Below are positions 43,796 through 57,977 of a stretch of 64,000 nucleotides of DNA, piece after piece. The notes under the pieces were generated by a model. The model was not told where the DNA came from. It saw only the letters and a program-made list of their open reading frames with translations, and made no database searches. The stretch's first letter is position 1; each line of letters begins with the position of its first letter. Location: IMG/VR virus record IMGVR_UViG_3300008111_000006, positions 32,405-96,404 of that record; one strand, 5' to 3'. The stretch is from a virus. The position numbers were made by a program, and so were the translations under genes.

Positions 43796-43827
43796 TTTGA
43801 CTTTTTAGAAAATAGTATATAAATTTG
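43796..43827 (+). promoter_or_regulatory. promoter of the DUF2828 gene (TTTGAC / TAAATTTG)
   Basis: TTTGAC at 43796-43801 and TAAATTTG at 43820-43827 match the Bacteroidetes -33/-7 pair. The TTGACTTTTTAGA part also occurs in the two tRNA-array promoters. Confidence 0.65.
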
Positions 43828-43848
43828 TATTCAGAAATAAAAAAAGAT

Positions 43849-45264
43849 ATGGAAACACAGTTGACTAATATTGAGAAAGAGAACGTAACATTAACTAAAA
43901 ACGGTATGGTTACTAACCCAACAACACTTAATAAGTGTGTTGACTTATTCTTCTCTATTGGTTCAATGAGAGGTAAGTCAAAAGATAAATTAATTAAAAT
44001 GTTTAATGAGGCATTTGAAGAAAATCCTTTGATTACGACAAAAATTCTTTTTTGGGTTAGAGATATTAGAGGTGGTGCGGGTGAAAGAAAAGTGTTCAGA
44101 GATATTATTGAATACTTGGTAACTAACTCACCAGAAACAGTTAGAAAAAATATTAATCTAATACCTGAGTTCGGAAGATGGGATGACATATTGATTCTTT
44201 TGGGTACAGAATTAGAAGAAGATATGTTTTACCATATCAGAGCAGCGTTAATCAACCGTACCGATGGTTTATGTGCTAAATGGATGCCTAGAAAAGGTGA
44301 GTTGGCAAACAAACTTAGAAAATTGTTTAAGATGACACCTAAACAATATAGAAAAATGTTAGTTGAATTAACTAATGTTGTTGAAACTAAGATGTGTGAT
44401 AAGGATTGGGAATCTATTGATTATTCTAAATTACCTTCTTTAGCGTCATCTAGATATCAAAAATCTTTTAAGAGAAACGATACTGTTAGATATGAGGATT
44501 ATAAAAATGCGTTGGTTGATGGTACCGCTAAGGTAAATGCTGGGGCAGTATATCCATATGATATCATTAAATCTATGAGATATGGTGGTGACGATGTTGT
44601 CAACAATAAACAATGGGAATCCCTACCAAATTTTATGGAAGGATCCACTGAAAGAATATTACCAGTGGTAGACGTTTCTGGATCTATGACTTGTTCAGCA
44701 GGAGGAAATCCAAACCTAACATGTATAGATGTGGCAATATCATTAGGTATGTATATATCTGAAAGAAGTGAAGGTAATTTTAAAGATGCGTTTATCACAT
44801 TCTCTGAGAATCCACAACTACAGTATTTAAAAGGTGATTTAAAACAAAGATTGAACCAGTTACTTAGTGCGGAGTGGGGTATGACTACTAATTTAGAAAA
44901 AGTATTTAAATTAATACTTACACAGGCTAAGAACAACAAAATATCTGAAGATATGATGCCGACTAAAATAATTATTTTATCGGATATGGAGTTCAACGAA
45001 GCAACTCGTAAAGATAGTAGTTCACAATCTATGATTGAAGCTATGTATGAGGAGGCAGGGTATAAAAAACCTGATATCATCTACTGGAATTTAAATGCGA
45101 CTGGAGGTAACTTTCCTGTTGAGTTTGATGAAAACGGAACTGCGTTAGTTTCAGGATTTAGTCCGTCAATTCTTAAATCTTTATTAGGTGGTAAGAATAT
45201 GACACCAGAATCCATATTGTTGGATACTGTGAATAGTGAAAGATATGGTGTTATAACCGTATAA
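43849..45264 (+). CDS. DUF2828 / Ro60-TROVE-related protein with a vWA MIDAS (471 aa)
   Basis: The N-terminal 270 residues are helical-repeat-like (FFSIGSMRGKSKDKLIKMFN, ILFWVRDIRGGAGERKVFRD), as in TROVE/Ro and DUF2828. The C-terminal von Willebrand A domain has an intact MIDAS, LPVVDVSGSMTCS near residue 281, plus IIILSDMEF. Ro60-type proteins form rings that bind misfolded or Y-type RNAs. The ATG at 43849 is preferred over a TTG at 43825 that overlaps the promoter. A structured noncoding region with a boxA-like start follows directly. Confidence 0.8.
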   Translation: METQLTNIEKENVTLTKNGMVTNPTTLNKCVDLFFSIGSMRGKSKDKLIKMFNEAFEENPLITTKILFWVRDIRGGAGERKVFRDIIEYLVTNSPETVRKNINLIPEFGRWDDILILLGTELEEDMFYHIRAALINRTDGLCAKWMPRKGELANKLRKLFKMTPKQYRKMLVELTNVVETKMCDKDWESIDYSKLPSLASSRYQKSFKRNDTVRYEDYKNALVDGTAKVNAGAVYPYDIIKSMRYGGDDVVNNKQWESLPNFMEGSTERILPVVDVSGSMTCSAGGNPNLTCIDVAISLGMYISERSEGNFKDAFITFSENPQLQYLKGDLKQRLNQLLSAEWGMTTNLEKVFKLILTQAKNNKISEDMMPTKIIILSDMEFNEATRKDSSSQSMIEAMYEEAGYKKPDIIYWNLNATGGNFPVEFDENGTALVSGFSPSILKSLLGGKNMTPESILLDTVNSERYGVITV

Positions 45265-45276: not shown

Positions 45277-45808
45277 AAAAAAATATTTGTGATAGTTAAG
45301 GAATAATTGCAGCAAAATTTAAAACTAAAATTTATAGCTACATACAAAGGGCTTGATAACCCTCCTAACTATAAGGGTGTAAACCACGAAAGTGGGGGAC
45401 CACTCACGGTTAGGTAAAGTGTCAAACTATTCCGATATCACAATCATATTAGGTGTAATGGATTGGAGGTTAACGAACCTCCTTTAAGTCCGATAAACGA
45501 ATGGTTTCTGCAACTCTTATTCTAGGAACTATGTAGATCAGAAGTTTTACCACTTTACTTCAAAAAAAATATAAAGTGGCGACCATAGGTGAGTTTAAAC
45601 GTGGGAAATTCCCACACTTTAGGTCGTAAAACATACCTCTTGTTTATCTCAAGTTAAAAAGGTAGTTGGATTTGTCTCAATTAAAAAAAAGACACCCGAA
45701 CCAGAATGGGCCAATAATATTGGGGTGGGTACTCTACCACCTAAAATAAAAACAGGACCACCATTCCGACACCGACATTTAAAAGGGAAGAGAAATCTTC
45801 CCTTTTTT
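45277..45808 (+). ncRNA. candidate large structured noncoding RNA next to the Ro-like gene (about 530 nt)
   Basis: No coding frame fits the interval. It has many strong local stems. Examples are CCTAAC/GTTAGG (45364/45409) enclosing GGGTG/CACTC and a CCAC-GAAA-GTGG tetraloop; GGAGGTT/AACCTCC at 45465-45482; CCACTTTA/TAAAGTGG at 45550-45579; CGACC/GGTCG (45580/45622) around GTGGGAA/TTCCCAC; and CCAATA/TATTGG. It starts after a boxA and ends in a terminator at 45781. I could not match it to RNase P, group I introns or other classes; a GOLLD/ROOL-like phage RNA or Ro-bound RNA is possible. The exact 5' end is unknown. Confidence 0.65.
45781..45808 (+). terminator. terminator of the large noncoding RNA
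   Basis: GGGAAGA/TCTTCCC stem closed by a GAAA loop and followed by six T residues. Confidence 0.85.
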
Positions 45809-56507: not shown

Positions 56508-56588
56508 AAAATATTAAAAGGAAGATTTCAGCAAAAATAACTACGAACTGCAAATTTGGATATGTAAAAACATTTTCCTGAATATTTT
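56508..56588 (+). ncRNA. structured spacer between tRNA-Tyr and tRNA-Trp
   Basis: Outer helix AAAATATT/AATATTTT continued by AGGAA/TTCCT, enclosing an ATGT/ACAT hairpin. Same design as the spacer at 56357. Confidence 0.35.
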
Positions 56589-56592
56589 ATTA

Positions 56593-57487: not shown

Positions 57488-57574
57488 ATGACATACAGAT
57501 TAGAGGTTGCTAAGGCAAAAATGGATGGGGCGGATTCGCTTCTACCAAATCTTAGGGTATATCATTATAGTTAA
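57488..57574 (+). CDS. leader ORF of tRNA array 2 (28 aa)
   Basis: Starts MTYRLEVAKAKMDGADSLLP and stops at TAA 57572-57574. It has exactly the length of the array 1 leader ORF. Its codons 22-24 contain the antiterminator arm CTTAGGGT. Confidence 0.5.
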   Translation: MTYRLEVAKAKMDGADSLLPNLRVYHYS

Positions 57575-57634
57575 TCAAAAAAATTTAAAATACTATATTA
57601 TGGAAACCCTAAGTGAAAACTTAGGGTTTTTTGT
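57551..57634 (+). promoter_or_regulatory. candidate attenuator of tRNA array 2
   Basis: Segment 1 CTTAGGGT (57551-57558, in the leader ORF) is identical to segment 3 (57620-57627). Both are perfectly complementary to segment 2 ACCCTAAG (57606-57613). Segments 2:3 form a T-tailed terminator with loop TGAAAA; segments 1:2 would prevent it. The sequence differs from array 1 but the design is the same. Confidence 0.7.
57604..57634 (+). terminator. attenuator terminator hairpin, array 2
   Basis: AAACCCTAAG/CTTAGGGTTT stem, loop TGAAAA, then T residues. Confidence 0.8.
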
Positions 57635-57749: not shown

Positions 57750-57751
57750 CA

Positions 57752-57897
57752 AAATGATAATAAAGGGATTGTTTCTGCAACAATTATTTTAGCCTTTTAA
57801 GCTCGGGGTCGTAGGTTCGAATCCTACCTGAGGACATTTATTGTCTTCAGTAGCTTAGTGGTAGAGCACGTATACAACCCAATCCTGATTATCATTT
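57752..57897 (+). ncRNA. candidate circularly permuted tRNA (Lys UUU-like)
   Basis: The 3' part of a tRNA comes first: anticodon-like loop CTTTTAA (57794-57800), T arm GTAGG-TTCGAAT-CCTAC (57811-57827) and acceptor strand CTGAGGAC (57828-57835). After a 7-base loop comes the 5' part: acceptor strand GTCTTCAG (57843-57850, pairing 8/8 with one G-U), TA, and D arm GCTT-AGTGGTA-GAGC (57853-57867). The ends AAATGATAAT...GGATTG and CAATCC...ATTATCATTT pair perfectly over 10+6 bp. The anticodon stem pairs 4/5 at best. Confidence 0.55.
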
Positions 57898-57901
57898 ATT
57901 A

Positions 57902-57977
57902 GGTCCATTGGTGTAATGGTTTAACATACATCACTGTCTATGATGTGCTGAGAGTTCGATTCTCTCATGGACCGCCA
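57902..57977 (+). tRNA. tRNA-Asp (GUC), CCA encoded
   Basis: Acceptor GGTCCAT/ATGGACC, anticodon loop CTGTCTA, T arm GAGAG/CTCTC, discriminator G, genomic CCA. Confidence 0.92.

Follow-up and report, generated by a model that had tools for sequence, protein, structure and literature searches.

The 64,000-nucleotide window analysed here belongs to a 96-kb IMG/VR virus record and carries a tRNA array in which the gap between tRNA-Ser (ending at 57750) and tRNA-Asp (starting at 57902) is filled by an element (57751-57898; plus strand, as are all of its parts) that is most likely a Y RNA-like mimic of tRNA. Its components follow one another in the order basal helix, CUGCAA, anticodon hairpin, variable region, T arm, acceptor 3′ strand and a short loop, after which come the acceptor 5′ strand, U8-A9, the D arm and the returning strand of the basal helix. 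The 3′ part of a tRNA precedes its 5′ part between tRNA-Ser and tRNA-Asp, as the initial annotation had described, and each component that it named lies where it had placed it.

The basal stem is composed of two helices, both supported by folding and alignment. The outer helix pairs 57753-57761 with 57888-57896, and the inner helix pairs GGATTG at 57766-57771 with 57880-57885; their 3′ strands, which together span 57880-57896, are separated by TG (57886-57887), which lies opposite an AAA 5′ of the inner helix to form an internal loop. Three nucleotides past the inner helix is a CNGCAA motif (57775-57780), which reads CTGCAA here and CAGCAA in the relative L008. The anticodon hairpin, AGC-CTTTTAA-GCT with anticodon UUU (57791-57803), is invariant in L008 and a further relative, L007, and is followed by tRNA positions 42-43 (CG, 57804-57805), which pair with positions 27-28 (CG, 57869-57870) across the opening of the cloverleaf. 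The opening had been assigned to 26/27; instead, the basal helix opens the tRNA between 28 and 29, with C27-G28 pairing to C42-G43. The T arm (57811-57827) and D arm (57853-57867), likewise supported by folding and alignment, flank a capped acceptor hairpin (57828-57850), for which the proposed pairing of the acceptor strands holds while its size is revised from 8 bp across 7 nt to 9 bp with a 5-nt loop. The acceptor length, which had been noted as unusual, is accounted for by this cap.

Folding of the element gives -40.8 kcal/mol (z-score -3.5, with 1 of 200 shuffles equally good), and the predicted fold contains the paired ends, T arm and D arm already recognised in the annotation as well as the capped acceptor. 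Neither ARAGORN nor Rfam at its gathering score reports a gene at 57751-57898. Deletion of the stem in silico and restoration of the usual order yields a perfect 72-nt tRNA-Lys(UUU). An ordinary tRNA-Lys(UUU) lies 320 bases from the element, which counts against the suggestion that this is a permuted gene maturing into a tRNA.

Conservation of the fold and further stems in the window

A search with the nearby phosphoesterase gene returned 22 related loci. The element of L006 is identical to that of the window, those of L007 and L008 are 83-84% identical to it, and a fourth variant is found in L073/L074; L009 and L010 have the same array without the element and without tRNA-Asp at this place. 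In the covariation alignment, which consists of three distinct sequences (the window, L007 and L008), L007 and L008 keep all 38 pairs of the permuted cloverleaf and basal helix, with 100% of cells paired compared with 31-43% when the partners are slid against each other. Six of the 38 pairs are changed on both sides, and five of these covarying pairs lie in the acceptor hairpin, which in L007 and L008 reads CCGUUGUCC-UUCG-GGGC(A/G)GCGG. The covariation check in relatives that had been proposed for this locus is therefore borne out, with both helices kept and compensatory changes present. The acceptor linker, a 5-nt loop in the window, is a UUCG tetraloop with extra pairs in L007 and L008, and this comparison shows the cap to be maintained as what is predicted to be a stable hairpin.

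Three more RNAs of this kind are found in the window, all on the plus strand. Y1 (45286-45445), located just downstream of a DUF2828 gene, has the same kind of stem, although its partner strand is followed by GA instead of TG, and is also conserved in the L008 record, where one compensatory change is present. Y2 (45491-45777), likewise directly downstream of the DUF2828 gene, is a larger and less certain candidate with CTGCAA and a partner strand CCATTC followed by CG; it too is conserved in L008. Y3 (56508-56589) is a short stand-alone stem that fills the gap between tRNA-Tyr and tRNA-Trp, and its outer helix covaries in four relatives (L007-L010), with a folding z-score of its own of only -0.9. 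Y3 and the element each occupy nearly the whole of a gap between two tRNAs, and both would be set free once their neighbours are trimmed.

A stem motif in tRNA-like and tRNA-free RNAs

The stem motif, consisting of a helix, an AAA/UG internal loop, a second helix and NNN-CNGCAA, is common to many phages. In a linear series, an open, unpermuted and otherwise regular tRNA carries the stem between its positions 28 and 29, and the pairs 27-43 and 28-42 are maintained on either side of the stem in 114 of 126 cases, compared with 24 expected, among the matches listed. A permuted series comprises at least 155 candidates in at least 127 loci recovered by pattern scans, with the same two pairs holding in 123 of 155 (28 expected), again among the matches listed. 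For the permuted RNAs that bear the motif, a 6-bp helix beside CNGCAA is present in 88 of 93 compared with 29 in shuffles, and the helix together with the UG that follows it in 60 of 93 compared with 8. The acceptor linkers of the permuted series are 3 to 66 nt long, mostly 4-9. Since the scan patterns were fixed, all these survey counts are lower bounds with selection effects, and UUCG caps are over-represented because one pattern required TTCG. Once the stem is removed and the halves are un-permuted, ARAGORN accepts all 86 strict permuted cases, whereas it recognises 6 when the order is left as it is and, on average, 31 when halves are swapped. Exact scans for the arrangement of the window itself and exact pattern scans of genome contigs returned nothing, as did a distant blastn search of isolate phages with one permuted relative.

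Unpermuted tRNAs with the stem at 28/29 carry diverse anticodons (L049:14658-14774, L060:3543-3664, L065, L120, L299, L232 and many others) and also occur on bacterial MAG contigs, many of them from Lachnospiraceae. Some isolate genomes have stem-bearing tRNAs annotated as tRNAs of 110-127 nt, as tRNA-OTHER or with a wrong anticodon. One tRNA body (anticodon TGA, 93% identical over 72 nt) is permuted in L329 and L359 and unpermuted with the stem in L120, so that these records provide a direct conversion pair. Permuted tRNA-like units with another type of stem are present in L365 and L368, which encode RtcB and have neither DUF2828 nor a TROVE match.

The stem also stands free of tRNA. In Listeria phage A511, three stems occur in a row immediately upstream of the DUF2828 gene with no tRNA part, and several stems beside DUF2828 in isolate phages likewise carry none. 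A strict form of the motif (a 6-nt strand, 3 nt, CAGCAA, and the pairing strand followed by UG) was searched for near the DUF2828 gene of 11 isolate phages and gave 25 matches in the sense orientation and none in antisense, compared with a control mean of 0.09 and a maximum of 1 among 200 controls. Phage HY02 has four such stems downstream of its DUF2828 gene. Vibrio phage PG216 and Mycobacterium phage Snenia have a DUF2828 gene with no such stem within 3 kb. The suggestion in the initial annotation that this could be a tRNA-like RNA with another job is supported, given that its basal stem belongs to a family that tracks DUF2828 Ro60-like proteins and is also found without any tRNA.

DUF2828 proteins and the relation to bacterial Y RNAs

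The likely partner in the window is a Ro60-like ring protein of 479 aa encoded by a DUF2828/DUF7788 gene (43825-45264, plus strand). An AlphaFold2 model built from 20 homologues (pLDDT 84) has the HEAT-repeat ring and vWA domain of the Ro60 fold, and the ten best matches in a Foldseek search of the PDB are all Ro60/TROVE structures (best E-value 8e-10, TM-score 0.54-0.60 for most). The DUF2828 family profile also finds Ro60 by sequence. As Pfam detects no TROVE domain in the protein, reporting DUF2828/DUF7788 and a weak vWA_Ro60 match instead, we describe it as Ro60-like and not as a TROVE member by sequence. DUF2828 is encoded in 26 of 27 large phage records that have motif-bearing tRNAs and in none of 16 without them (Fisher p = 6e-11, or 1e-9 after near relatives are collapsed), in a record set that was chosen partly by the motif and whose members are not independent. 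Gene and RNA are often 0.7-3 kb apart in phage records, although in the window they are separated by 13 kb. RtcB does not track the motif and was rejected as a responsible ligase. Through this association, an uncharacterised family present in 682 isolate-phage records gains a recognisable RNA partner; our literature search found no paper naming DUF2828 together with phage.

The closest parallel is to the bacterial Y RNA YrlA, the basal stem of which is bound by Rsr and the tRNA-like domain of which comprises D, T and acceptor arms (PMC8394870). Its structure superposes on tRNA by circular permutation and has been described as a tRNA mimic (PMC11472068). In Deinococcus, a Y RNA tethers PNPase (PMC8394870; PMC7790460). 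Among Rfam families, the element matches YrlA best, with the same order of arms, at 30.9 bits for the window and 33.2 bits for L008 (E-values 3e-5 and 6e-6, from short searches); both lie below the gathering score of 69 bits, so the element is not filed as a YrlA member. Like YrlA (RF02553; structure 6CU1), it has a basal stem of paired ends, a permuted tRNA-like domain of T arm, capped acceptor and D arm, and a Ro60-like protein, here encoded in the same phage. The known kind to which it corresponds is bacterial YrlA, from which it differs in the AAA/UG loop and CNGCAA motif of its stem, in having DUF2828 rather than TROVE as partner, in its complete anticodon arm, and in having sister RNAs in which the stem lies inside open, unpermuted tRNAs. 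This points to a mimicry of tRNA that, in RNAs of this type, can extend to the anticodon arm. A 2014 study reportedly found Y RNAs next to the genes for Ro60 in numerous bacteria and also in mycobacteriophages.

A second permuted series, in which the 3′ part ends in ..GGTTACTTC, accompanies a TROVE protein encoded in 7 of 9 records scanned. These RNAs are also permuted, capped tRNA mimics, but their stem is without CAGCAA and TROVE takes the place of DUF2828. They probably represent a classical Y RNA system in phages, which strengthens the parallel to the DUF2828 system. The series occurs in L323, L319, L391, L318, L348, L329 and L313. Furthermore, Listeria phage CKA15 produces three very abundant RNAs beside an Rsr-like gene that were suggested from the transcriptome to be Y RNAs, their identity being left open (PMC12282133). 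Considering the three tRNA-free stems at the DUF2828 gene of the related phage A511, we infer that the abundant RNAs of CKA15 are the stems described here.

Permuted tRNA genes of algae and archaea, with which the initial annotation had compared the element, also place the 3′ half before the 5′ half and have paired ends. However, the element has a capped acceptor, with UUCG and extra pairs in L007 and L008, apparently in place of an intervening sequence with normal tRNA ends, no splicing-endonuclease motif is apparent in it, it coexists with an ordinary tRNA-Lys, and its stem is meaningful without splicing. The rearranged ‘tRNA’ is real, but most likely not a tRNA gene, and the earlier interpretation is partly supported overall.

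Proposed function and alternative readings

The following mechanism seems most likely for the element, taken as the Y RNA-like component of a Ro60-like ribonucleoprotein of the phage that mimics tRNA in circularly permuted form. The RNA would probably be freed from the transcript of the tRNA array by trimming of tRNA-Ser and tRNA-Asp and would stay linear. Its basal stem of paired ends would be bound by the DUF2828 ring of the phage itself, for which the genomic association provides good support. The upper part would present a tRNA-Lys(UUU) cloverleaf that is cut in the anticodon stem and rejoined through the capped acceptor, leaving no free CCA end. Such a mimic could not be charged and may, in infection, attract or block a tRNA-binding factor; by analogy with YrlA, it could act as a handle that brings this factor to the Ro-like ring or as a gate that keeps it away. 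Candidate factors are an exonuclease (PNPase being the example from Deinococcus), an enzyme that modifies tRNA, or an anticodon nuclease for which the invariant CUUUUAA loop would act as bait.

The Y RNA-like reading is favoured by the retention of the capped acceptor through compensatory changes and by the three other such RNAs in the window. Against it stand the YrlA score of 31 out of 69 bits, the 13 kb to the DUF2828 gene, the extra anticodon arm, and the many sister RNAs in which the stem sits in an open, unpermuted tRNA, a form that YrlA does not explain. Within the system, it is these unpermuted, open-acceptor forms that are least well understood. The reading accounts for several odd objects in tRNA arrays, namely permuted tRNAs and over-long tRNAs annotated as tRNA-OTHER or mis-assigned. 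As phages of laboratory E. coli carry the pair, the function of bacterial Ro-Y RNA complexes becomes testable in a simple system.

A less likely, though still credible, proposal is that the capped, unchargeable mimic of tRNA-Lys serves as a decoy for host anticodon nucleases directed at tRNA-Lys(UUU). Such a role need not compete with the Y RNA reading and may be one of the tasks of the Y RNA. For YrlA, it has been suggested that an anticodon nuclease is inhibited by competition (PMC7790460). The CUUUUAA loop does not vary among the three distinct aligned sequences, and UUU is the most frequent anticodon of the linear set as well as of the permuted one, among the matches listed. However, sister RNAs carry many other anticodons and some upper parts are not tRNA at all, while a test for decoys among class-II anticodons gave a mixed result (7 of 57 permuted RNAs of the type of the element and 5 of 74 linear ones).

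We consider it improbable that the locus is a permuted tRNA gene with a small intron, in which the stem is the intron, with halves at both ends, and is spliced, perhaps with the help of DUF2828, into a circle that RNase P and tRNase Z would open at the acceptor cap to give tRNA-Lys. This was initially favoured because removal of the stem restored perfect tRNAs (86 of 86 cases, as described above), and the 27-43 and 28-42 pairs across the stem in the matches listed (114 of 126 in the linear series, 123 of 155 in the permuted one) point the same way, as does the report of introns in Lak phage tRNAs (PMC6784885). These pairs can equally form in the unspliced RNA, however, and a cap reinforced by extra pairs does not provide regular 5′ and 3′ termini. 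An insert of this size is too small for any known ribozyme, none of the intron families in Rfam gives a match, and a group I intron was rejected on size and on the absence of Rfam matches. The ordinary tRNA-Lys also makes a spliced product redundant, as in phages CBB and GAP32, and RtcB does not follow the motif. Above all, the same stem is present in A511 where there is nothing to splice; the idea of a small tRNA intron with DUF2828 as splicing factor was dropped in view of the tRNA-free stems beside DUF2828 there and in other isolates, as a stem found on its own next to a protein gene can be understood without any splicing. Slightly more doubtful still is the general case, in which DUF2828 assists excision of the stem from linear and permuted pre-tRNAs, the permuted ones via circular tRNAs; this would constitute a bacterial tRNA-splicing system of a previously unknown kind. 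Splicing is kept alive, at low probability, by the unpermuted forms with open acceptors.

Finally, it is virtually ruled out that the locus consists of two neighbouring tRNA relics that remained after deletions in the array and pair by chance: the missing element and tRNA-Asp in L009 and L010 do indicate that this stretch of the array is fluid, but the two strands of the acceptor covary on either side of the cap, the basal helix has been retained, independent examples exist in many phages, and the compensatory changes, with 38 of 38 pairs retained in L007 and L008, refute the independent drift of the two halves that such relics imply.

The Lak megaphages, for which tRNA introns have been reported, are also large phages having long tRNA genes with unexplained inserts, and Lak-B5 encodes DUF2828. 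For Lak-B5, an identity of these ‘introns’ with the stem was checked and rejected, as the motif is absent from both of its long tRNAs (L619:66-182 and 188-314); a loose stem match lies upstream of the DUF2828 gene (L584:2799). The window further contains a phage tmRNA (52297-52700, Rfam 104 bits), for which the tag peptide predicted by ARAGORN is very long, at 31 residues; that of the related L010 reads AKEEVVFA. A conserved ORF of 28 codons (MTYRLEVAKAKMDGADSLLPNLRVYHYS, 57489-57575) lies between tRNA-Cys and tRNA-Ser, is also present in L009 and L073, and is followed by a terminator-like hairpin.
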